Source of the DNA: a virus
Length of the DNA stretch: 32,780 nucleotides
Reading direction: 5' to 3' (one strand)
IMG/VR virus record: IMGVR_UViG_3300032050_000499
Span: 1-32,780 of that record
The notes beneath the pieces are model-generated. The model was not told the DNA's origin and made no database searches. It worked only from the letters and a program-made list of their open reading frames with translations. The translations under genes were made by a program, and so were the position numbers. Positions 1-32,780 of the stretch are shown in pieces. Position 1 is the first letter of the stretch, and every line of letters begins with the position of its first letter.

Positions 1-197
1 GAACTGAATTGCCACTTAACTGGCATAACGCATCCACACAAAGTGAATTCCTGACCATTATAGACCACTTTATCTCCAAGTGGATTCACCGCCCTAAAAG
101 TTCCACAAGTCCTTGTATCGGCTTTATAATACTCGCAGGCAAGGCATAGTGACCTTCTGCGCTCCTTCTCTTTATTATCGACAAAGATTTTAAACAT
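1..197 (-). CDS. Cys-rich putative zinc-binding protein (3' part cut by window edge)
   Basis: This is the first 65 codons of a gene whose full homologue lies at 28153-28581 (142 aa). The start at 197 overlaps the stop of the sigma-like gene (190-192), as in the other copy. The visible part has a CxxC pair (CLAC) and later a CGC motif, fitting a small zinc-ribbon-like protein. The function is not known to me. Compared with the full copy there are a few substitutions in this stretch (for example A for S in the CxxC pair). Confidence 0.8.
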   Translation of the reverse strand, partial: MFKIFVDNKEKERRRSLCLACEYYKADTRTCGTFRAVNPLGDKVVYNGQEFTLCGCVMPVKWQFS

Positions 198-636
198 ATT
201 CGTGTATGATTTTTTTTACCTTGTCTAAAGTAGAATAAATCGTTCGTTCCGGGATTCCAGTATTCACGGCTAATTGCCTCATATTTTCGCCCTGTAGATA
301 TAGGTCGAATACCAATCTATCAAACGCATCGAGATATCGAATTATCTCATCTATTTTCTCAATGCATTCTCTTCTATCCATATCGTAAGTCGCAACTATT
401 TCGGGCATCTCATCCGTATCCTGATGGCTACTCCGCTTCCACTTGGAATCTCTTATGATTCTGCTTATAGTCAGTTTAAAGTAATAGTCCGTTTGTGCAT
501 CACTTTGGTATTCAAAATCCGCATTAATTACTTTGATGTAGGCTTCGTGAACTAAATCGTGAGGTAGGTTAGTCATTGCCCCTGCATACCTAACCATCCG
601 TGAATAATTACGATGCACCCAGTTATCCAAGTTCAT
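190..636 (-). CDS. sigma-70-family-like (ECF-type) transcription factor, left copy
   Basis: The 148-aa protein has a region-2-like helix near its N-terminus (HDLVHEAYIKVIN) and a C-terminal region-4-like helix-turn-helix (LVFDLYLQGENMRQLAV followed by IPERTIYSTLDKVKK). This is the layout of small ECF-type sigma factors. In a phage, such a protein placed at the end of the early module and before the virion genes plausibly directs late transcription; that is inference. I chose the ATG at 636, which overlaps the HNH stop by 14 nt; an in-frame ATG at 669 would overlap by 47 nt. Over the longer 159-aa frame the two copies differ by only three amino acids although the DNA differs much more, so both appear to be under purifying selection. 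Confidence 0.72.
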   Translation of the reverse strand: MNLDNWVHRNYSRMVRYAGAMTNLPHDLVHEAYIKVINADFEYQSDAQTDYYFKLTISRIIRDSKWKRSSHQDTDEMPEIVATYDMDRRECIEKIDEIIRYLDAFDRLVFDLYLQGENMRQLAVNTGIPERTIYSTLDKVKKIIHEYV

Positions 637-1009
637 CGACCTTCCTTTTGTAAAGTTCAATGAGTTCACGCAAATCGGAGATTGAGAACTTGGCTATCTG
701 CTGACTCTTGACTAATATCTCTTGTGCAGTTCCTTCTCCGTACACTTCATCGAGTCGAATGCCAAATTGATATTGCTGACCTCCGTTGGTCATATTACAT
801 CTCTTACATTGGAATTGAACATTGCGTTCATCCCACCGGGTAGACATCTTCATTCTACTTTGGAAATGTCCGGCATCAACTTCGCTCCAATGCTTCGATA
901 CACCACAAGTAAAGCAAACTCCAAACCCATCACCACGACTGACTCGCATCCGAATGTACTTCGAAAATATCGTGTCAAGTTTGGTGACAAGTTTGGTGCG
1001 CTCGCTCAT
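623..1009 (-). CDS. NinG-like HNH/zinc recombination protein, left copy
   Basis: The 128-aa protein resembles lambda NinG (Rap): an N-terminal LDTIFSKYIRMR segment, a CFTCG pair (C32, C35), VDAGHF (H48), RWDERNVQFQCKRCN (C68, C71) and a C-terminal helical part. In this family the Cys/His residues form a zinc-bound HNH-like fold that acts on branched recombination intermediates. Its start overlaps the stop of the RecE-type nuclease gene as ATGA (1006-1009), which fits a recombination operon. In the right copy a 105-aa gene sits at exactly this junction. Confidence 0.85.
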   Translation of the reverse strand: MSERTKLVTKLDTIFSKYIRMRVSRGDGFGVCFTCGVSKHWSEVDAGHFQSRMKMSTRWDERNVQFQCKRCNMTNGGQQYQFGIRLDEVYGEGTAQEILVKSQQIAKFSISDLRELIELYKRKVDELG

Positions 1010-1716
1010 CTATACCAAGTTGGAATAGTGACTTCGTATGTACCTATGGAATAAGATTCGGGAGTGCCATCCCAATTCTTAAATTTCCTAATTAATTCCA
1101 ATAACTGAACTCGACCAGCAGATAATACCTCATAGGTCAGGTGATATTCCTGAACATTAAATGGCGCAGAATTCTCGACTGCAAGAATGTAGTAATCACT
1201 CATCCCAGTTATCTCACAATAGATTGCCGCCTGAATGTGGTACATCATATCGAATATCGTTCTGCTGAATGCTTTAGGAGATGCGTCTTGAGTTGTTTTG
1301 ATGTCTACTATATGTCGAATAGATATGCCGTCTACAATGCCTTTAAATTCGATGCCTTCAATCATTCCCGAAATGGGAACTTCAGGATTGATTTTTTTAA
1401 GGCTTCTGCGTTCTTCCGACTGGACATTGGCAACCATCTTCAAGAGGTTTTCGTAATCACCACCATCTATTGCTTCCTTGCCTTTGTTTGCTTCGCTAAA
1501 CGATTGCCATTCATCCTTCCCTGCTTTCGTTCGCTTGTCGCATTTTGGCGCAATGGCGAATCGTTCTTCAAAGGTATCAGGCTCTAATAAGAGTGCGTGA
1601 AATGCTCTTCCGAATGCCATCGCAGGGGTGTCCTTATAATCTCTTGAGATGTATTCGAGATAGTGGTTTGGTGATTTGGCAAATGCCTTGAGTGATGAAT
1701 AAGATAAGTGCTTCAT
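1006..1716 (-). CDS. RecE-type PD-(D/E)XK exonuclease, left copy
   Basis: The 236-aa protein fits the PDDEXK exodeoxyribonuclease VIII-like family. It has an N-terminal SYSSLKAF...SPNHY motif, GRAFHALLLEP (H40), GIVDG (D129), VDIKTT (D138, K140) and HIQAAIYCE (Q162), which match the expected catalytic order. It probably resects dsDNA ends for phage recombination or replication together with the OB-fold and NinG-like proteins. I did not recognise a single-strand annealing protein next to it. The start at 1716 has an A-rich leader ending in ACACAATG. The right copy is nearly identical in protein sequence. Confidence 0.85.
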   Translation of the reverse strand: MKHLSYSSLKAFAKSPNHYLEYISRDYKDTPAMAFGRAFHALLLEPDTFEERFAIAPKCDKRTKAGKDEWQSFSEANKGKEAIDGGDYENLLKMVANVQSEERRSLKKINPEVPISGMIEGIEFKGIVDGISIRHIVDIKTTQDASPKAFSRTIFDMMYHIQAAIYCEITGMSDYYILAVENSAPFNVQEYHLTYEVLSAGRVQLLELIRKFKNWDGTPESYSIGTYEVTIPTWYR

Positions 1717-1730
1717 TGTGTTCTGTTATT

Positions 1731-1958
1731 TTATTTGTTAATGTAATTATTAATGCCTGCTCTAACTAATTGGCTAATACATATGTCATTTGCTTTACAA
1801 TATTCGTGAATCTCATCATATTGTTTTTTTGTAACAACACATTTTATTATTGCCTCTGCTTTTTCAAGTTTTCTTTGGAAACCTCTTTTGCCTTTAATTG
1901 CCTTTCCTATTGCTCTGCCCTCGTTAAATGGGGCTGATTTAATTTCATTTGCTTTCAT
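1731..1958 (-). CDS. ribbon-helix-helix-like DNA-binding protein, left copy only
   Basis: The 75-aa basic protein ends in a segment typical of RHH/Arc-MetJ folds: a beta-like VVTKKQYDEI followed by HEYCKANDICISQLVRAGI. It is likely a small DNA-binding regulator. It starts 1 nt after the stop of the 43-aa gene (TAA T ATG), so it is well embedded in the operon. The right copy lacks it completely: there, the 43-aa gene is followed almost directly by the exonuclease gene. It is therefore accessory. Its target is unknown. Confidence 0.75.
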   Translation of the reverse strand: MKANEIKSAPFNEGRAIGKAIKGKRGFQRKLEKAEAIIKCVVTKKQYDEIHEYCKANDICISQLVRAGINNYINK

Positions 1959-1959
1959 A

Positions 1960-2091
1960 TTATCCTTGTCCGATTTTGAGTTTGAGATATGTTTTGCTCG
2001 ACTTCAGGAGGCTTCTCTTCTTGGAGTGCCTGCCTTTCATCTTTTTCTTGGGTTTGATGATGCGCTTCTGCGCTTCCTTTTGTTTAGCCAT
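1960..2091 (-). CDS. small basic protein, 43 aa, left copy
   Basis: The frame starts MAKQKEAQKRIIKPKKKMKG and is very rich in Lys/Arg. Its ATG overlaps the stop of the 169-aa gene by 8 nt and its TAA is followed after 1 nt by the next start. The right copy (30449-30580) encodes the same length with only a few changes (Q4P, and LNVGQG for LKIGQG at the C-terminus). Conservation of length, frame and junctions supports a real gene. The charge suggests nucleic-acid binding, but I do not recognise the family. Confidence 0.75.
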   Translation of the reverse strand: MAKQKEAQKRIIKPKKKMKGRHSKKRSLLKSSKTYLKLKIGQG

Positions 2092-2593
2092 TTGGATTAA
2101 TGCTTGTTCTTATGTGTTGCCAAGGGTCACCGCCCCCAATCCTTTGGGAGTATCGGTTATCGTTTTCGTATCGGTTGATTCGTTCCAATAATTCGGAGCG
2201 TTGGCCTTCAAAGGTACGAAAGATATCGAGAATTTCGGGAGTCTTTAACCTCTCATAGAATTTCCCCCACTTGCCTTGTTTCATCTCTTGGAACACCACA
2301 ACTATCTCTTCCAGTTTTAATGCCGGGAAATCCTCGATAATCGACTCGATTGTGAACATTAAATCCTCTTCGGTTTCAATGGTTTTCTTTGCGTCGATGA
2401 ACTTGATTAGTTTCCCCAGTTCGATGACCAAGAATGTCTTGAGTTCCTTTGGGTGTTCCTTATTGGCCTTTCGAATGTTTAGACCTTGTGTCCACGCATC
2501 TTCTCTTGATGCAACCTGAACTTCGAATCTGCCATTCTCAAGCCTTGTTAAGCCATTGCTCGAATTTGCTTGTAAGTTGAATTTTTGTTCCAT
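2084..2593 (-). CDS. possible replication accessory protein (169 aa), left copy
   Basis: The start at 2593 (MEQKFNLQANSS) matches the start in the right copy; an upstream in-frame ATG at 2623 has no counterpart there and overlaps the initiator gene further. The middle has an acidic helical segment (EEDLMFTIESIIEDFPALK) followed by QEMKQGKWGKFYERLKTPEIL. A pattern of pre-helices then GK(W/Y)GK(F/I)Y occurs in uncharacterised Bacteroidota phage proteins next to initiators, where helicase-loader-like roles have been suggested. That link is weak. Its position directly after the initiator gene, overlapping it by 56 nt, supports a replication role. Confidence 0.7.
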   Translation of the reverse strand: MEQKFNLQANSSNGLTRLENGRFEVQVASREDAWTQGLNIRKANKEHPKELKTFLVIELGKLIKFIDAKKTIETEEDLMFTIESIIEDFPALKLEEIVVVFQEMKQGKWGKFYERLKTPEILDIFRTFEGQRSELLERINRYENDNRYSQRIGGGDPWQHIRTSINPNG

Positions 2594-3233
2594 TGGTTTG
2601 TTGTTTTGATTTATCAGGTGCAAATATACCTTTATAGCCTTGTGCGATTGAATGATGTATCATTTCGATTGCGAACTCTTCATTGCCCTGCGAGGTCTTC
2701 GCCAGTTGGGCAAGTGCGATGTTCTCCGAATCTATAGTCTTGTAACTAAATCGGTGAGAGGTCTTCTTATAATCCTTCCATTGCTCCCATACCTCGATGA
2801 ATGATTCGCTGAATGGATTAGTTGGTTTCTCCTTGACAATCCTCTTCCTATTTACAATTCTATTTTCATTTTCATTTTCATTTTCCATATGTATAGACAT
2901 ATGTGTTGACATATGTTGTGACATATGTTTTTCACTTTTGTCTTGTGGTTTAGAATTTCGATTCTTTCTCCTTGACTCACAAAAGTTTCTGCGCTTGTCG
3001 ACTTCAAGGCGCAATCTTTCGTTAAAAAAATTTCCATCAGAGTCTTGCTCGAATTTCGCCCAAATGTCCTTGTCATATGTTCCACATATGTTCGACATAT
3101 GTTCCTTTGTAAGAGAGCCGATTTGGTGTTGGGCGCATAGTAATCGAATGTACTTTCCTACCTGCTCGTTGGTCATAAACATAGTCCCAGTAAGAAAGTC
3201 ACTTGAATAAAATAAGAATGCAGGGTCTTTCAT
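2538..3233 (-). CDS. phage replication initiator-like protein with internal iterons, left copy
   Basis: The 231-aa protein has an N-terminal domain (PAFLFYSSDFLTGTMFMT...GKYIRLLCAQHQIG, about 1-90) typical of phage replisome organisers related to DUF1376. A charged linker (about 85-125) contains HM(S)xHM repeats and ENENENEN. A C-terminal domain follows (NPFSESFIEVWEQWKDYKK onward). By analogy with lambda O, the DNA under the linker may be the origin: CATATG arrays at 2886-2927 and 3074-3101 and an AT-rich ATTTTC repeat lie in the gene. The start follows a two-hairpin RNA element (3246-3331). The right copy (31027-31722) has the same length, with changes concentrated in the linker. Confidence 0.8.
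   Translation of the reverse strand: MKDPAFLFYSSDFLTGTMFMTNEQVGKYIRLLCAQHQIGSLTKEHMSNICGTYDKDIWAKFEQDSDGNFFNERLRLEVDKRRNFCESRRKNRNSKPQDKSEKHMSQHMSTHMSIHMENENENENRIVNRKRIVKEKPTNPFSESFIEVWEQWKDYKKTSHRFSYKTIDSENIALAQLAKTSQGNEEFAIEMIHHSIAQGYKGIFAPDKSKQQTNGTKIQLTSKFEQWLNKA
2849..2885. repeat. AT-rich direct repeat beside iterons (possible unwinding element), left copy
   Basis: On the plus strand an AT-rich tract runs into four tandem ATTTTC hexamers, which encode the ENENENEN stretch on the minus strand. The tract directly abuts the first CATATG of the 12-bp array. In lambda-type origins an AT-rich unwinding region flanks the iterons inside the initiator gene, so the layout is comparable; the role here is inferred. 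The same tract is kept at 31338-31374. Confidence 0.5.
2886..2927. repeat. four CATATG iterons at 12-bp period (putative origin), left copy
   Basis: CATATG palindromes start at 2886, 2898, 2910 and 2922, exactly 12 bp apart, usually as ACATATGT. They encode HM dipeptides at residues 103-116 of the initiator. In the right copy the six-base spacers and the encoded residues between the HM pairs differ, but all four palindromes and the period are kept. This suggests selection on the DNA motif. Confidence 0.75.
3074..3101. repeat. three CATATG iterons at 11-bp period read in three frames, left copy
   Basis: CATATG starts at 3074, 3085 and 3096, 11 bp apart, each as GAACATATG on the minus strand. 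Because 11 is not a multiple of 3, the three copies encode different residues (HM, then N-I-C, then T-Y-D). A peptide repeat therefore cannot explain them, and 11 bp places them on one face of the helix. The right copy keeps all three (31563-31590). Confidence 0.78.
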
Positions 3234-3245
3234 ATTAAAATAAAT

Positions 3246-3331
3246 CCCATTGGCTTTCGGTGTGTCCGCACCTACTTACCAATGGGTTTAATGTTTCTTA
3301 ATGCATCATTCAGTCGGACACCTGAACGATG
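3246..3331 (-). ncRNA. two-hairpin kissing-loop RNA upstream of initiator gene, left copy
   Basis: In transcript order the first hairpin has a 10-bp stem (3322-3331 with 3304-3313; one G-U) and an 8-nt loop containing UGUCCG. The second has outer arms CCCAUUGG/CCAAUGGG (3279-3286 with 3246-3253) and an inner GGUG/CACC stem (3269-3272 with 3259-3262) closing a 6-nt loop, CGGACA (3263-3268). The two loops are perfectly complementary over six bases. In the right copy they read UAUCCG and CGGAUA, a compensatory G-C to A-U change. The element fills the gap between the 61-aa gene and the initiator start, so it probably controls initiator translation. Confidence 0.75.
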
Positions 3332-3339
3332 GTGCTAAT

Positions 3340-3525
3340 TTAATGACTTCTTCTAAATATTGCCCATTTGCCATCGATGGGAATTATTTTGTCCTTTTCG
3401 AAGAGGTCAATTATGACTCTATCAACTTCATCCATAGTTAACCATAATGATGCAGACAACTCTCTCCGGGACATCGAATTCCTATGCAGTAACTCAATTA
3501 CCCTCGTTTCCAATGATTGCTCCAT
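3340..3525 (-). CDS. small winged-helix-like protein (61 aa), left copy
   Basis: The sequence (TRVIELLHRNSMSRRELSAS, then DEVDRVIIDLFEKDKIIPIDG) has the helix-turn-helix plus wing pattern of small winged-helix DNA-binding proteins. It overlaps the upstream 68-aa gene by 32 nt and is followed by the kissing-loop RNA and the initiator. The right copy differs by one residue near the C-terminus (A versus C). It may regulate the replication genes, or be a subunit binding the iterons; neither is shown. Confidence 0.7.
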   Translation of the reverse strand: MEQSLETRVIELLHRNSMSRRELSASLWLTMDEVDRVIIDLFEKDKIIPIDGKWAIFRRSH

Positions 3526-3700
3526 ATAGTTCCTCGATTGAAAGTTTAGTCGCTTTGTGTAATTCAGGGAGGTATTTTAGAAGGAGTCTTCGCTCTTCCT
3601 CTTCTCTTAATAGGACTCGCATCCGTACGGATGTTAATCCGCATACTTTGCTCATCCCTTTTAAGCCTCCAAGAGATTCGGTTATTTCATTTAAGTTCAT
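3494..3700 (-). CDS. YdaS/Cro-like helix-turn-helix protein (68 aa), left copy
   Basis: The layout LNEITESLGGLKGMSKVCGL, then a basic segment, then YLPELHKATKLSIEELYG, follows that of YdaS/Cro-like HTH proteins (GG..xLA..LGV ... LP.IE.ATG....L). The recognition-helix region is unusually charged (REEEERR), so the match is partial. The start overlaps the stop of the 110-aa gene by 14 nt. It is probably a small transcriptional regulator of the early operon; as a lone gene it does not establish lysogeny. Confidence 0.65.
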   Translation of the reverse strand: MNLNEITESLGGLKGMSKVCGLTSVRMRVLLREEEERRLLLKYLPELHKATKLSIEELYGAIIGNEGN

Positions 3701-4019
3701 AATTCAATTTATATTTATGTCTACTACCTTCTTTATTTGCATTCACTATTCCCTTATCAATTGCTGATTTTAAGCCATTGTTTATGTCAAGTACAAAGTG
3801 CTTTTGTCTTAACTCTAATATGGCTCTTTCATCAGCAATCCATTCGGATTTTCCCTTTATCGAATAAACATCTTTCAGGAATCCTATGGTCTTTTTGTGC
3901 AGACCCTTGAGGTCTATTTGCCGAGAATCGAATAGGTCTCTTTGCGTAAACAATTGCTCAAACTCTTTGCGAGGAATTATTATGGCAATATCTCCGTTGG
4001 TTGTGGTTGTGATGCGCAT
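3687..4019 (-). CDS. variable early protein (110 aa), left copy
   Basis: The start at 4019 (MRITTTTNGDIAIIIP) lies 1 nt after the stop of the OB-fold gene (TAA T ATG); the longer frame from 4055 would overlap that gene. The first about 20 and last about 8 residues are almost identical to the right copy, but the middle is only moderately similar, far less than flanking genes. No motif is recognised. The pattern suggests rapid change or allele swapping, for example by pressure from a host or a competing phage. Confidence 0.75.
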   Translation of the reverse strand: MRITTTTNGDIAIIIPRKEFEQLFTQRDLFDSRQIDLKGLHKKTIGFLKDVYSIKGKSEWIADERAILELRQKHFVLDINNGLKSAIDKGIVNANKEGSRHKYKLNYELK

Positions 4020-4020
4020 A

Positions 4021-4428
4021 TTAAAATGGTTGTTCGTTATTAGTTTCTTGACCATACACCCCAGTCATTACCCATTGCGTGAAGATTTCTGCACGGAGGA
4101 TGATGTTTGCCGGGTCACCTGATGGGTTACATTCAACCGCCGCTTTCAGGCACGATTGGCGAACGATTAAGAGTTGCCTATCGATGTCATTGCCTCCTGA
4201 TGGGGAAGATATCGTTTCGGCTTTCTTAATCTTGCCCTGCTTGCCAAATTTCCCTGCTTTGGTGACCTCGTAATCTACTACATCACCCACCTGGTAAGGA
4301 GGTGTTTCGGTTTTCGCATTGACCTCAAGAGTCTCATCGTTTTGAAATGTGACCTTAAAGGAATACATAGTTCCAAATTGCCCAGTCCACTGACCTTTTG
4401 CTTCGATGTTTGTGATTGTTGATTGCAT
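4021..4428 (-). CDS. putative OB-fold ssDNA-binding protein (135 aa), left copy
   Basis: The N-terminal half (ITNIEAKGQWTGQFGTMYSF, then NDETLEVNAKTETPPYQVGDVVDYEV) resembles small phage OB-fold proteins. The C-terminal half has RQSCLKAAVECNPSGDPANI followed by AEIFTQWV, a helix pattern I associate with phage single-stranded-DNA-binding proteins. It probably coats ssDNA for replication and RecE-type recombination encoded downstream. The start overlaps the previous stop by 1 nt (TAATG). Its right-hand homologue is truncated by the window end. Confidence 0.6.
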   Translation of the reverse strand: MQSTITNIEAKGQWTGQFGTMYSFKVTFQNDETLEVNAKTETPPYQVGDVVDYEVTKAGKFGKQGKIKKAETISSPSGGNDIDRQLLIVRQSCLKAAVECNPSGDPANIILRAEIFTQWVMTGVYGQETNNEQPF

Positions 4429-28156: not shown

Positions 28157-28581
28157 TCGTTATCCACTAATTTAATTAGTTCATTCAGCATATCTTTAAC
28201 GCACTTGCCACAAGTGGTGTACTTCTGCTTTTTAGAGGTAGCCATATTGTAAGCATTCACTATCCTCTTCATATCATCGTTCAGGATTGATGGCTTGCCC
28301 TTATAATCTTTAACGATAGCCTTCAATTCTTCCATTGCTTCTGCGCTTATTTGCCTCTCCCATTTACCTACACTACAACTCGCTGAACTGAATTGCCACT
28401 TAACTGGCATAACGCATCCACACAAAGTGAATTCCTGACCATTATAGACTACTTTATCTCCAAGTGGATTCACCGCTCTAAATGTTCCACAAGTCCTCGT
28501 ATCGGGCTTGTAATACTCGCAGGAGAGACATAGTGACCTTCTGCGCTCCTTCTCTTTATTATCGACAAAGATTTTAAACAT
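28153..28581 (-). CDS. Cys-rich putative zinc-binding protein (142 aa)
   Basis: The protein has LCLSCEYY, RTCG, LCGCVM, ASCSVGKW and a C-terminal TTCGKCVKDML. The Cys pattern with CxxC and CGC...C...KW suggests one or two zinc ribbons. I recall similar Cys-rich proteins in Bacteroidota phages without known function. It follows the sigma-like gene, overlapping it by 8 nt. The left copy is truncated at the window start. Confidence 0.75.
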   Translation of the reverse strand: MFKIFVDNKEKERRRSLCLSCEYYKPDTRTCGTFRAVNPLGDKVVYNGQEFTLCGCVMPVKWQFSSASCSVGKWERQISAEAMEELKAIVKDYKGKPSILNDDMKRIVNAYNMATSKKQKYTTCGKCVKDMLNELIKLVDNE

Positions 28582-29020
28582 ATTCGTGGATGATTTTCTT
28601 GACCTTATCTAATGTAGAATAAATCGTTCTTTCTGGTATCCCAGTATTCACCGCAAGTTGTCGCATATTTTCCCCCTGAAGATATAAGTCAAACACCAAT
28701 CTATCAAACGCATCGAGATAACGAATTATCTCATCAATTTTCTCAAGGCACTCCCTTCTATCCATATCATAAGTAGCAACTATTTCGGGCATATCATCGG
28801 TATCCTGATGACTGCTCCTCTTCCACTTGGAATCTCTTATTATTCTGCTTATGGTAAGTTTAAAATAGTAGTCGGTTTGTGCATCACTTTGGTATTCGAA
28901 ATCCGCATTAATTACCTTGATGTAGGCTTCGTGAACTAAATCGTGAGGTAAGTTAGTCATTGCCCCTGCATACCTGACCATTCGTGAATAATTACGATGT
29001 ACCCAACTATCCAAGTTCAT
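28574..29020 (-). CDS. sigma-70-family-like factor, right copy
   Basis: Homologue of 190-636. The protein changes are minimal (N to S, E to D, I to L in the longer frame), while many synonymous bases differ. In this copy the gene leads straight into the Cys-rich, methyltransferase, terminase and virion genes, so it is the last early regulator before the late block. The start at 29020 overlaps the HNH stop by 14 nt, as in the left copy. Confidence 0.72.
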   Translation of the reverse strand: MNLDSWVHRNYSRMVRYAGAMTNLPHDLVHEAYIKVINADFEYQSDAQTDYYFKLTISRIIRDSKWKRSSHQDTDDMPEIVATYDMDRRECLEKIDEIIRYLDAFDRLVFDLYLQGENMRQLAVNTGIPERTIYSTLDKVKKIIHEYV

Positions 29021-29393
29021 CGACCTTCCTTTTGTAAAGTTCAATGAGTTCACGCAAATCGGAGATAGAGAACTTTGCTATCTGCTGACTCTTGACTAAT
29101 ATCTCTTGTGCAGTTCCTTCGCCGTAGACCTCATCCAGTCTAATGCCAAATTGATATTGCTGACCTCCATTGGTCATATTGCACCGCTTACATTGAAACT
29201 GGACATTCCTTTCATCCCACCTTGTACTCATCTTCATTCGACTTTGGAAATGCCCTGCATCTACTTCGCTCCAATGTTTTGAAATTCCACAAGTGAAGCA
29301 AACTCCAAACCCATCACCACGACTGACACGCATCCGAATGTACTTCGAAAATATCGTGTCAAGTTTGGTGACAAGTTTGGTGCGTTCGCTCAT
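29007..29393 (-). CDS. NinG-like HNH/zinc recombination protein, right copy
   Basis: 128 aa, differing from the left copy by a single residue (V to I after CFTCG). All Cys/His positions are kept. Unlike the left copy, its start is not fused to the nuclease stop; it lies 6 nt after the stop of the 105-aa inserted gene. Confidence 0.85.
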   Translation of the reverse strand: MSERTKLVTKLDTIFSKYIRMRVSRGDGFGVCFTCGISKHWSEVDAGHFQSRMKMSTRWDERNVQFQCKRCNMTNGGQQYQFGIRLDEVYGEGTAQEILVKSQQIAKFSISDLRELIELYKRKVDELG

Positions 29394-29399
29394 ACGTTT

Positions 29400-29717
29400 T
29401 CACTTTTTTTTAAATCTGCATATGAAAGAGTTTTTGCTATATCGATACCATTCAAATCTATTTTCGAATTTGACTTTTAATAGATTTCCATCTTTAACTA
29501 AAGATAGCAATGCATTGTCACTTTGCGGATTAATTACAACCACATTAGTGGTGTGACTTTGGATGTATTCAATTTTATTTTTATCGAGAAAGGTCAATAT
29601 TTCTTTTACACTTCTATCTCTTTTTCTCTTTTTATCTTCTCGCATTGCTGCCGTAACGCAGTCACAAAAATCTTTGTGCCAATTGTCGCAGCAATATTGT
29701 GTCAATTCTTCCCTCAT
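29400..29717 (-). CDS. inserted accessory protein (105 aa), right copy only
   Basis: The start at 29717 (MREELTQYCCDNWHKDFCDC) overlaps the nuclease stop as ATGA. A longer frame to 29783 lies inside the nuclease gene and is unlikely. The sequence has a Cys-rich N-terminus, a basic middle (MREDKKRKRDRSVKE) and a C-terminal strand-rich part (VVVINPQSDNALLSLVKDGN). The gene is richer in A/T than its neighbours and absent in the left copy, where nuclease and NinG-like genes touch. It is a mobile accessory gene (moron-like). Function unknown. Confidence 0.75.
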   Translation of the reverse strand: MREELTQYCCDNWHKDFCDCVTAAMREDKKRKRDRSVKEILTFLDKNKIEYIQSHTTNVVVINPQSDNALLSLVKDGNLLKVKFENRFEWYRYSKNSFICRFKKK

Positions 29718-30424
29718 CGATACCAAGTTGGAATTGTCACTTCGTATGTTCCGATTGCATAAGATTCGGGAGTGCCATCCCAATTCTTAAATTTCCTAAT
29801 TAATTCCAATAACTGAACTCGCCCAGCAGATAATACCTCATAAGTCAGGTGATATTCCTGGACATTAAATGGCGCAGAATTCTCCACCGCAAGAATGTAG
29901 TAATCACTCATCCCAGTTATCTCACAATAGATTGCCGCTTGGATGTGGTACATCATATCGAATATCGTTCTGCTAAACGATTTAGGAGATGCGTCTTGAG
30001 TTGTTTTGATGTCTACTATATGTCGAATAGATATGCCGTCTACAATGCCTTTAAATTCGATGCCTTCAATCATTCCCGAAATTGGAACTTCAGGATTGAT
30101 TTTTTTAAGGCTTCTCCTCTCTTCGGATTGAACATTAGAAACCATCTTCAGGAGATTCTCATAGTCACCTCCATCTATTGCTTCCTTGCCTTTGTGTGCT
30201 TCGCTAAACGATTGCCATTCATCCTTACCTGCTTTTGTCCGCTTGTCGCATTTAGGCGCAATGGCGAATCGTTCTTCAAAGGTATCCGGCTCTAATAAGA
30301 GTGCGTGGAAGGCTCTTCCGAATGCCATCGCAGGAGTGTCCTTGTATTCCTTTGATATATATTCGAGATAGTGATTTGGTGACTTTGAAAAAGCCTTGAG
30401 TGATGAGTACGATAGATGTTTCAT
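29714..30424 (-). CDS. RecE-type PD-(D/E)XK exonuclease, right copy
   Basis: 236 aa, same motifs as the left copy (H40, D129, D138/K140, Q162) and only a handful of conservative differences. The start at 30424 has a leader ending in ATACACAATG. Here the gene is preceded directly by the 43-aa gene because the RHH gene is missing. Confidence 0.85.
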   Translation of the reverse strand: MKHLSYSSLKAFSKSPNHYLEYISKEYKDTPAMAFGRAFHALLLEPDTFEERFAIAPKCDKRTKAGKDEWQSFSEAHKGKEAIDGGDYENLLKMVSNVQSEERRSLKKINPEVPISGMIEGIEFKGIVDGISIRHIVDIKTTQDASPKSFSRTIFDMMYHIQAAIYCEITGMSDYYILAVENSAPFNVQEYHLTYEVLSAGRVQLLELIRKFKNWDGTPESYAIGTYEVTIPTWYR

Positions 30425-30448
30425 TGTGTATTGATTTTGTGTTTAATG

Positions 30449-30580
30449 TTATCCTTGTCCTACATTTAATTTGAGATATGTCTTGCTTGACTTCAGGAGG
30501 CTTCTCTTCTTTGAGTGCCTGCCTTTCATCTTTTTCTTCGGTTTGATGATGCGCTTCTGCGCTTCTTTCGGTTTAGCCAT
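30449..30580 (-). CDS. small basic protein, 43 aa, right copy
   Basis: MAKPKEAQKRIIKPKKKMKG and onward, with the same length as the left copy and few changes. Start overlaps the 169-aa gene stop by 8 nt. Its preserved frame while third positions drift supports a genuine protein. Confidence 0.75.
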   Translation of the reverse strand: MAKPKEAQKRIIKPKKKMKGRHSKKRSLLKSSKTYLKLNVGQG

Positions 30581-31082
30581 TTGGATTAATGCTTGTTCTT
30601 ATATGTTGCCACGGATCACCGCCACCAATTCGTTGAGAGTATCGGTTATCGTTTTCGTATCGGTTTATCCTTTCCAATAGTTCGGAGCGTTGTCCTTCAA
30701 AGGTACGAAAGATATCCAAAATTTCGGGAGTCTTCAGTCGCTCATAAAACTTCCCCCATTTGCCTTGCTTCATTTCCTGAAAGACTATTACTATCTCTTC
30801 CAGTTTTAATGCCGGGAAATCCTCTATAATGGACTCGATTGTGAACATTAAATCCTCTTCGGTTTCGATGGTTTTCTTTGCGTCAATAAACTTAATTAGT
30901 TTCCCTAATTCGATAACGAGGAATGTCTTCAATTCCTTCGGATGTTCCTTGTTGGCTTTGCGGATGTTGAGACCTTGAGTCCAAGCTTCCTCTCTTGTGG
31001 CAACCTGAACTTCGAATCTGCCATTATTAATCCTTGTTAAGCCATTGCTCGAATTTACTTGTAAGTTGAATTTTTGTTCCAT
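30573..31082 (-). CDS. possible replication accessory protein (169 aa), right copy
   Basis: Homologue of 2084-2593, with few residue changes (for example VNSS for ANSS, INNGRF for LENGRF, TREEAW for SREDAW). The start at 31082 is 56 nt inside the initiator gene, as in the left copy. The GKWGKFYERLKTPEIL segment is identical. Confidence 0.7.
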   Translation of the reverse strand: MEQKFNLQVNSSNGLTRINNGRFEVQVATREEAWTQGLNIRKANKEHPKELKTFLVIELGKLIKFIDAKKTIETEEDLMFTIESIIEDFPALKLEEIVIVFQEMKQGKWGKFYERLKTPEILDIFRTFEGQRSELLERINRYENDNRYSQRIGGGDPWQHIRTSINPNG

Positions 31083-31722
31083 TGGTTTGTTGTTTTGATT
31101 TATCCGGTGCGAATATACCTTTGTAGCCTTGTGCGATTGAATGATGAATCATTTCGATGGCGAACTCTTCGTTGCCTTGCGAGGTCTTTGCTAATTGGGC
31201 TAGTGCGATGTTCTCCGAGTCGATGGTCTTGTAAGAGAATCTATGAGAGGTCTTCTTGTAATCCTTCCATATCTCCCATACCTCGATGAACGATTCACTA
31301 AATGGGTTAGTTGGTTTTTCCCCTGCACCCCTTTTCCTATTTACAATTCTATTTTCATTTTCATTTTCATTTTCCATATGTTGATACATATGTGGTGACA
31401 TATGTTGTGACATATGTTTTTCATTTTTGTCTTGTGGTTTTGAATTTCTATTCTTTCTCCTTGACTCACAAAAGCTTCTGCGCTTGTCAACTTCCAGTCG
31501 CAGTCTTTCGTTAAAAAAATTACCATCGGAGTCTTGCTCGAATTTCGCCCAAATGTCCTTGTCATATGTTCCACATATGTTCGACATATGTTCTTTCGTT
31601 AGCGCACCGATTTGGTGTTGGGCGCATAATAATCGAATGTACTTTCCTACCTGCTCGTTTGTCATAAACATCGTTCCAGTAAGAAAGTCGCTTGAATAAA
31701 ATAAGAAAGCAGGGTCTTTCAT
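31027..31722 (-). CDS. phage replication initiator-like protein with internal iterons, right copy
   Basis: 231 aa from the ATG at 31722, matching the left copy; a frame extended to 31761 runs into the hairpin element and is rejected. The N-terminal domain and C-terminal domain are nearly identical to the left copy, whereas the linker differs (SPHMYQHM instead of STHMSIHM, GAGEKP instead of IVKEKP). Within that linker all four CATATG palindromes remain. Confidence 0.8.
   Translation of the reverse strand: MKDPAFLFYSSDFLTGTMFMTNEQVGKYIRLLCAQHQIGALTKEHMSNICGTYDKDIWAKFEQDSDGNFFNERLRLEVDKRRSFCESRRKNRNSKPQDKNEKHMSQHMSPHMYQHMENENENENRIVNRKRGAGEKPTNPFSESFIEVWEIWKDYKKTSHRFSYKTIDSENIALAQLAKTSQGNEEFAIEMIHHSIAQGYKGIFAPDKSKQQTNGTKIQLTSKFEQWLNKD
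31375..31416. repeat. four CATATG iterons at 12-bp period, right copy
   Basis: CATATG starts at 31375, 31387, 31399 and 31411. The spacers differ from the left copy (for example TTGATA against TATAGA) but number and period are unchanged. The AT-rich ATTTTC repeat abuts it at 31338-31374. Confidence 0.75.
31563..31590. repeat. three CATATG iterons at 11-bp period, right copy
   Basis: CATATG starts at 31563, 31574 and 31585, out of phase with the codons exactly as in the left copy. Confidence 0.75.
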
Positions 31723-31735
31723 AGTTAAAAAAAAT

Positions 31736-31822
31736 CCCATTAGGTTTCGGTGTATCCGCACCTACTCCCCAATGGGTTTAATGTTTTTGAATTTCACCAT
31801 TCAGTCGGATACCTGAATGATG
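31736..31822 (-). ncRNA. two-hairpin kissing-loop RNA upstream of initiator gene, right copy
   Basis: First hairpin arms are 31813-31822 and 31795-31804 (10 bp with one G-U). The second hairpin has an outer stem with a 1-nt bulge and the inner GGUG/CACC stem. Loop bases 31806-31811 and 31753-31758 are complementary (UAUCCG with CGGAUA). Relative to the left copy one loop base and its partner have both changed, keeping the pair. Confidence 0.75.
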
Positions 31823-31830
31823 GTGCTAAT

Positions 31831-32016
31831 TTAATGACTTCTCCTGAAGATACACCACTTGCCATCAATGGGAATTATTTTGTCTTTTTCGAAAAGGTCT
31901 ATAATCACTCTATCAACTTCATCCATAGTTAGCCACAAGGATGCAGATAACTCTCTCCTGGACATCGAATTCCTATGCAGTAACTCAATTACTCTCGTTT
32001 CCAATGATTGCTCCAT
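31831..32016 (-). CDS. small winged-helix-like protein (61 aa), right copy
   Basis: Almost identical to 3340-3525; W-C-I replaces W-A-I near the C-terminus. Overlaps the 68-aa gene by 32 nt. The constant sequence between two diverged haplotypes points to a conserved interaction. Confidence 0.7.
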   Translation of the reverse strand: MEQSLETRVIELLHRNSMSRRELSASLWLTMDEVDRVIIDLFEKDKIIPIDGKWCIFRRSH

Positions 32017-32191
32017 ACAATGTTTCGATTGGTAGTTTAGTGGCTTTGTGGAGTTCCGGGAGGTACTTGAGAAGGAGTCTTCGCTCCTCCTCTTCCCTTA
32101 ATAGGACTCGCATCCGGACTGATGTTAATCCGCATACTTTGCTCATCCCTTTAAGACCTCCAAGAGATTCTGTTATCTCATTTAAATTCAT
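31985..32191 (-). CDS. YdaS/Cro-like helix-turn-helix protein (68 aa), right copy
   Basis: Identical to the left copy over the first 52 residues, with a few changes after KATKL (PIETLYGAIIGNESN for SIEELYGAIIGNEGN). Start overlaps the 110-aa gene stop by 14 nt. Interpretation as for the left copy. Confidence 0.65.
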   Translation of the reverse strand: MNLNEITESLGGLKGMSKVCGLTSVRMRVLLREEEERRLLLKYLPELHKATKLPIETLYGAIIGNESN

Positions 32192-32510
32192 AATTCAATT
32201 TGTATTTATATCGTTTTCCTTGTTTACTAACTTCAATAAGACCTCTCTCTATTGATACTCGCATTGCTTTGTTTACATCCGGAACAAAGTGCTTCATCCG
32301 TAAATTAACAATTGGCAGTTCATCTGCTATCCATTCGGATTTGCCTTTTAATGCGTATACATCTTTTAAGAAATCTAATGTCTTATTATGGATTCCTGCC
32401 AAGTCAATTTGCGGTTGGTCGAATAAATCCTTTTGTACGAAAAATTGCTCGAACTCCTTCTTGGGGATAATGATGGCAATATCTCCGTTAGTTGTGGTTG
32501 TGATGCGCAT
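32178..32510 (-). CDS. variable early protein (110 aa), right copy
   Basis: Starts MRITTTTNGDIAIIIPKKEF and ends KYKLNYEFK, but the middle (for example DLFDQPQIDLAGIHNKTLDF) differs strongly from the left copy. By eye roughly 60 percent identity overall, against about 95 percent or more for neighbours. Length is unchanged, so both are probably functional alleles. Confidence 0.75.
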   Translation of the reverse strand: MRITTTTNGDIAIIIPKKEFEQFFVQKDLFDQPQIDLAGIHNKTLDFLKDVYALKGKSEWIADELPIVNLRMKHFVPDVNKAMRVSIERGLIEVSKQGKRYKYKLNYEFK

Positions 32511-32511
32511 A

Positions 32512-32780
32512 TTAAAATGGTTGTTCGTTATTAGTTTCTTGACCATACACCCCAGTCATTACCCATTGCGTGAAGATTTCCGCACGGAGAATAATGTTTG
32601 CAGGGTCTCCTGATGGGTTACATTCAACCGCTGCTTTCAGGCACGATTGGCGAACGATTAAGAGTTGCCTATCGATGTCATTGCCAGTTACTGGATTTGC
32701 TATCGTTTCGGCTTTTTTAATCTTGCCTTGCTTGCCAAATTTCCCTGCTTTGGTGACTTCGTAGTCTACCACATCACCTA
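32512..32780 (-). CDS. putative OB-fold ssDNA-binding protein, right copy (5' part cut by window edge)
   Basis: C-terminal part of the homologue of 4021-4428, including VDYEVTKAGKFGKQGKIKKA and DRQLLIVRQSCLKAAVECNP. A small linker differs (NPVTGN for SPSGGN). The N-terminus lies beyond the window. Confidence 0.6.
   Translation of the reverse strand, partial: GDVVDYEVTKAGKFGKQGKIKKAETIANPVTGNDIDRQLLIVRQSCLKAAVECNPSGDPANIILRAEIFTQWVMTGVYGQETNNEQPF

Follow-up and report, generated by a model that had tools for sequence, protein, structure and literature searches.

A covarying kissing-loop RNA in the leader of phage replication operons, a candidate cis-acting attenuator in Bacteroidota viruses

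The DNA analysed here (a virus record of 32,780 nt, called the window throughout) has its main genes all reading leftward, and for this reason the RNA of the element that we describe is assigned to the minus strand. The element consists of two hairpins, H1 and H2, carrying complementary loop sequences, X and X', and lies directly ahead of an open reading frame for a replication initiator of 231 aa. Upstream of it is a 61-aa open reading frame that gave no match in family searches and whose stop codon overlaps a promoter-like box. About 4.4 kb of the window is repeated after ~28.4 kb (positions 1-4400 and 28385-32780, 88-94% identity), and the record is longer than one genome, apparently a contig in which two strain variants have been merged. 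A sigma-factor-like phage protein (phrog_1740), a possible late regulator, is encoded at 190-669 and again at 28574-29053. The features of the two copies of the element are as follows.

3340..3525, minus strand: upstream 61-aa open reading frame (from the sequence)
3335..3342, minus strand: putative flavobacterial -7 box TAAATTAG (from the sequence; its place is homologous to the boxes of other leaders)
3330, minus strand: predicted start of transcription (+1), where the H1 stem begins at its base (from the box spacing in Flavobacterium psychrophilum)
3304..3331, minus strand: hairpin H1, 10-bp stem and 8-nt loop GTGTCCGA (fold; helix covariation in homologs)
3315..3321, minus strand: X, the kissing sequence GTGTCCG in the H1 loop (sequence; homolog pairing; covariation)
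3246..3286, minus strand: hairpin H2, with internal loops and a terminator-like basal stem (fold; covariation)
3262..3268, minus strand: X', CGGACAC, apical in H2 and complementary to X (sequence; homolog pairing; covariation)
3234..3245, minus strand: U-rich tract between H2 and the initiator start codon (sequence; T-enrichment in homologs)
2538..3233, minus strand: replication initiator open reading frame, 231 aa, DUF1376/O-like family (family searches)
3084..3102, minus strand: iterons ACATATGT starting at 3084 and 3095, inside the initiator gene (repeat search)
2886..2928, minus strand: CATATG at 2886 and three ACATATGT iterons at 2897, 2909 and 2921, with 12-nt spacing (repeat search)
31826..31833, minus strand: copy 2, putative -7 box TAAATTAG (sequence)
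31795..31822, minus strand: copy 2, H1 with loop GTATCCGA (fold)
31806..31812, minus strand: copy 2, X, GTATCCG (sequence)
31736..31776, minus strand: copy 2, H2 (fold)
31752..31758, minus strand: copy 2, X', CGGATAC (sequence)
31723..31735, minus strand: copy 2, U-tract ATTTTTTTTAACT, ahead of the ATG at 31722 (sequence)
31375-31418 and 31573-31591: copy 2, iterons in the initiator gene, with an adjacent (GAAAAT)n run

The original prediction held that two hairpins with complementary loops precede the initiator gene, and both are indeed present on the minus strand, with loops that match over seven pairs instead of the six first read. The compensatory change that it reported in the second copy is equally real, a single double change from G-C to A-U that gives GTATCCG and CGGATAC, and all stem differences between the copies are to other allowed pairs. 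In both copies the MFE fold contains H1 and H2 (z of -4.5 and -3.7), the stability of either leader was matched by none of 200 shuffles, and the combined score for H1, H2 and the loop match was reached in each copy by only one of 5000 dinucleotide shuffles. Within the window X occurs only in the two leaders, and X' once elsewhere, which is within chance expectation. The loop allele of copy 2 is no assembly error, for it recurs in the independent contigs L004 and L005, of which L005 comes from a different metagenome.

Homologs of the 231-aa protein were gathered from viral contigs and bacterial genomes, covering viral and prophage loci, and their leaders have the same two-part layout with differing loop sequences. 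Among 65 non-redundant leaders with a U-tailed H2 (detected with a T filter), 75% have a Watson-Crick X/X' partner of at least 7 nt upstream of H2, against 7.6% of mismatched controls in which the upstream part of one leader was joined to the H2 of another, and 71 unique leaders contain 46 distinct X sequences. A stricter scanner, run upstream of the initiator in 108 non-redundant viral loci, found the element on the sense strand in 46 of them and on the antisense strand in none; because this scanner requires a perfect 7-nt X/X' pair and misses leaders that have none, 46/108 is a lower bound on presence. Three layouts were distinguished. In type A, which includes the window, L019, L142 and phage lillamy, X lies in the H1 loop and X' is apical in H2; in the tail type (L099, L100, L101, L103, L176, L016) X is the bare 5' end; and in the nested layout (L028, L053, L056, L120) X is placed in a two-part H1 and X' adjoins a nested hairpin of a longer H2. 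The cultivated Flavobacterium phages lillamy, morran, mumin and snusmum have the element in otherwise very similar leaders with the alleles GTGAGACG, GTGAGAAG and GTGGAACG, each accompanied by its exact complement, and the three alleles occur among phages of the same host strains. Part of the replication protein is shared by the Flavobacterium elemo phages and by Cellulophaga phage Calle_1; the stretches scanned in them showed no convincing element. Comparison across these sequences places the element at the head of the DNA-replication operon in many phages of Bacteroidota, and the fact that its pairing sequences differ from phage to phage and yet always match makes it look like a real RNA switch.

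The pairing is also supported by covariation in separately aligned groups. In an alignment of seven related leaders (A3), 96.8% of the cells are paired and 15 of 27 pairs have changed on both sides, a degree of pairing that none of 500 shuffles equalled and that fell below 50% when the partners were slid by one to three columns; its kissing helix is paired in all 49 cells, with four of the seven pairs doubly changed. When X and X' were located by flanking anchors only, in six leaders of another type, all 54 possible pairs formed and positions 3, 4 and 5 each showed three pair types; only 2 of 720 permutations pair equally well, and two of the six leaders have identical X. A third group of six leaders (A5) gave 48 paired cells of 48 in the kissing helix and two doubly changed pairs. 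Uncompensated loop changes in homologous leaders had been named beforehand as the observation that would speak against the element; many homologs were examined for them, with a favourable outcome. A covariance model built from seven seeds of a subgroup (R1) matched about a dozen further leaders and did not find the window copies, because such a model cannot represent the kiss. General hypervariability of X was rejected, since in 23 disjoint pairs its divergence (0.115) is similar to that of the linker (0.122) and lower than that of fourfold sites (0.298). Clear replacement of X is confined to the tail-type group, where X and X' are exchanged in leaders that are otherwise nearly identical (between L099 and L104, 6 of 18 sites differ in X and X', against 5 of 96 in the rest).

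The strand asymmetry of the element supports its reading as RNA and not as a DNA hairpin: in 41 of 43 leaders the sense strand gives the more stable fold (p = 2e-8), as expected if G-U pairs are used, and on this bias, together with the 46/108 against 0/108 of the strict scanner, the DNA-hairpin reading was rejected. The -7 box close upstream and the U-tract that follows H2 likewise favour RNA. Of 52 leaders, 40 have a box of the form TAnnTT(T/C)G at a distance of 8-60 nt upstream of X, where 4.1 would be expected; the box of the window, TAAATTAG, has one mismatch to the consensus TAnnTTTG and is therefore considered putative. In F. psychrophilum the TAnnTTTG box occupies -12 to -5 (PMC9723704), a spacing that puts +1 at or near the base of H1 (position 3330 in the window) and that, applied to tail-type leaders (L099-L104, L016), predicts that the RNA begins with X (7-9 nt). 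Antisense-strand -7 boxes are not enriched (1 of 52 against 3.8 expected, this being the only promoter type scanned), which lends no support to an antisense RNA from the opposite strand.

Downstream of H2 the fraction of T is 0.66, compared with 0.31 for the leaders overall when no T filter is applied. In leaders whose ATG is 17-33 nt away, the run of T remains at the hairpin and the sequence ahead of the ATG is for the most part A-rich. H2 and its U-tract look like an intrinsic terminator and we predict that they function as one; a simple terminator scan of the window did not call H2, the H2 stems are broken by internal loops, and some U-tracts include A or C. The linker between H1 and H2 has 21% GC and pairs with the arms of H2 no more than expected, so that a classical antiterminator, with a mutually exclusive helix, can be ruled out. 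Fold, RNA strand, position, promoter box and U-tract are in this way established by comparison of sequences.

The original prediction also called the downstream gene an initiator, and this label is well founded because the protein belongs to a DUF1376 or 'primosomal/replication O-like' family and the gene contains iterons. PF07120 (DUF1376) matches 20 of 39 initiator homologs, and homologs match primosomal, replication-initiation and O-like PHROG families; the 231-aa protein of the window is itself marginal, with no Pfam match and a match to phrog_3992, and Foldseek comparison of an AlphaFold model of the initiator returned weak DnaD and winged-helix matches only. The motif ACATATGT occurs 94 times in 93 homologous genes, where 1.7 occurrences would be expected, and five times in 444 kb elsewhere. 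As it is found in all three reading frames (33/36/25), it must be conserved as DNA. The iterons at 2886..2928 adjoin an AT-rich (GAAAAT)n run, and the cluster is a candidate intragenic replication origin of the lambda O kind, whose conservation as DNA would account for the conserved HMENENEN peptide. Like the gene for lambda O, the initiator gene has iterons and an AT-rich run in its coding sequence; it differs in the iteron, ACATATGT, in the DUF1376-type protein and in the RNA leader, and to our knowledge lambda O has no RNA leader of this kind.

The distance from the end of the element to the initiator ATG is 8-42, ~183-236 or ~518-544 nt, and the more distant elements head the operon. Copies are also found at other genes. 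In contig L139 an additional one (809-913) precedes a DNA methyltransferase gene with the loop pair CTAACGG/CCGTTAG, unlike the initiator leader of the same contig, where X is GTCGCCG; in a Lutibacter MAG contig (L239:726-833) one precedes a helicase-like gene, the initiator leader being of the tail type; and in Muminvirus (snusmum9-1, L342; mumin6-1, L343) the leader heads a helicase operon and not the operon of the DUF1376 initiator.

We propose, with a probability of about 0.6, that the element is a cis-acting attenuator in the 5' leader RNA of the phage replication operon. Transcription from a flavobacterial promoter would produce an RNA whose first nucleotides carry X, either in a 5'-terminal H1 loop or as a bare 5' end. 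Some 18-40 nt later the polymerase would make H2 and the U-tract, a partial intrinsic terminator placed before the operon, and X would pair with X' in the H2 loop over 7-9 bp to give, during transcription, an H1-kiss-H2 tertiary fold. This fold would govern what share of the polymerases continues into the initiator gene, with its intragenic origin, and the switch would probably determine in this way how much replication protein is made. The kiss is the likely control element because it is the only conserved long-range contact seen, and we favour a mechanism in which it probably locks H2 in the terminating form. Termination at H2, the direction in which the kiss acts and a factor that releases it are features that we infer from sequence. 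Several observations are less comfortable for attenuation: besides the broken H2 stems, the mixed U-tracts, the negative terminator scan and the mismatch in the window's -7 box, the element is not present in every homolog (46/108 with the strict scanner), and an excess of ATG codons in the leaders also fits control coupled to translation.

This excess concerns ATGs near X or H1, present in 43 of 52 leaders (28.8 expected), and open reading frames that run from a leader ATG as far as X', found in 25 (16.2 expected). It supports control at the level of translation, in which H2 and the kiss would hinder ribosome access to the nearby start codon or a leader peptide starting in or after H1/X would open the fold, as with RepY in IncB/IncI-alpha plasmids, and it is joined by the tail-type leaders with ATGAAA directly 3' of X. 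However, no conserved leader peptide could be recognized, given that even related leaders encode different peptides (the two window alleles give MMH and MVKFKNIKPIGE); in addition, H2 may be as far as ~180-544 nt upstream of the initiator, and the U-tract tracks the hairpin and not the start codon, all of which makes translational control distinctly unlikely. In six tail-type leaders (L099, L100, L101, L103, L104, L310) the ATGAAA is situated at or ~1 base after X, and the short, near-leaderless open reading frame that begins there (MKTFLNP.ITALP-like) may allow translation coupling. A purely structural role, with a fold that shields the 5' end of the mRNA from RNases or belongs to a primer or origin-activating transcript without any switching, would agree with the location of the fold at the extreme 5' end and with the origin-like iterons of the downstream gene. 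Nevertheless, these iterons are within the gene, downstream of the U-tract, and copies precede a methyltransferase gene and helicase operons, where no origin is expected; we regard this role as very improbable.

Pairing could also take place between molecules. An H2-terminated small RNA of ~75-125 nt would then, through its X or X', bind the leader of another phage copy while this is being transcribed, and alter its read-through or translation, with loop alleles as specificity groups in a control of dosage or superinfection. Such action in trans is conceivable because the RNA would be discrete and co-occurring phages differ in allele, and much else is compatible with it: the unit has its own promoter box and a terminator-like 3' end, X exists in 46 alleles, X and X' have been replaced in nearly unchanged tail-type leaders (L099/L104), cultivated phages of the same host strains have three alleles, the two elements of contig L139 differ in their loops, and P4 CI RNA and Salmonella IsrK offer precedents (PMC4825925). 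Yet X and X' are carried by one RNA, so local pairing should win, the rate of change of X does not exceed that of the linker, and the window holds no further CI/seqA/seqC-like copy of X or X', as a third site, beyond chance. Moreover, the Mumin phages have been described as virulent (PMC7077304), which makes a lysogenic immunity like that of P4 unlikely there. The evidence does not require action in trans, and we consider it unlikely.

The attenuator that we favour has relatives in function among plasmids and phages. In ColE1, RNA I and RNA II control replication through fully paired 7-nt loops, and the element shares such loops and their association with replication, although ColE1 uses two RNAs and the element one. 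Replication control in plasmids of the IncB (pMU720) and IncI-alpha (ColIb-P9) groups uses translation, a leader peptide and an antisense RNA, and the original prediction had suggested a similar scheme here. The likeness is that in both a loop in the initiator-gene leader pairs at long range; the element differs in combining its kissing pair with a terminator-like hairpin, and the translation and antisense parts of the analogy are not supported. H2 is followed by a U-tract, as intrinsic terminators are, X' is within a second hairpin that ends 8 to >500 nt upstream and not beside a ribosome-binding site, the antisense -7 box is not enriched, and the hosts, being Bacteroidota, naturally lack Shine-Dalgarno sequences (PMC6847099). 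Further parallels are the plasmid attenuators of pT181 and pIP501/pAMbeta1, which have a leader terminator before the initiator and loop-loop contacts that set specificity (PMC3753616). The element shares with them the leader, with a hairpin that is terminator-like in sequence ahead of a replication initiator, and the loop-loop contacts, whereas its loop partner is in cis and it shows neither an antisense promoter signal of the -7 type nor an alternative antiterminator helix.

Functionally closest are P4 CI RNA, which shuts off the replication operon to which it belongs through premature termination, and IsrK, which works as short and read-through isoforms (PMC4825925). With P4 CI, P1 c4 and Gifsy-1 IsrK (RF01695 and relatives) the element has in common that it is a phage leader RNA with internal complementarities and that control of early or replication genes would act through termination or read-through, with a short and a longer, read-through form of the RNA. 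C4-type RNAs, however, are processed antisense RNAs with targets on both sides, while the element has one X and one X' in adjacent hairpins, no conserved sequence, no flanking targets and no Rfam match, and because of these last two differences it does not belong to the C4 family. Indeed, an Rfam search of the window and 20 homolog loci found no family above threshold, and the C4 model RF01695 gave no match at E values up to 10. A riboswitch, which would have conserved ligand-binding nucleotides, finds no support either: Rfam gives no match, and no loop base is conserved throughout the aligned groups (46 X alleles in 71 leaders). The expectation that no phage element with this exact layout had been described holds for Rfam and for the open-licence literature. 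By its sequence features, the element would work like a phage or plasmid replication attenuator, by means of a kissing loop in cis, and falls outside the described families that we found.

The combination of a conserved structure with a free pairing sequence amounts to a natural set of orthogonal attenuators, and could therefore be useful for synthetic biology. The most far-reaching version of this idea, a new class of self-recognising RNA attenuators with exchangeable orthogonal alleles that also act in trans between co-infecting phages, seems to us quite improbable; if it were true, allele identity would define replication interference groups in virulent phages, much as incompatibility does in plasmids. 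Since three alleles are available in cultivated phages that infect the same host strains, the choice between cis and trans can be tested directly. In any case, the element appears to be a widespread structured phage RNA, absent from Rfam and apparently undescribed, at a control point of DNA replication in the viruses of Bacteroidota, a major phylum for which few phage regulators are known.
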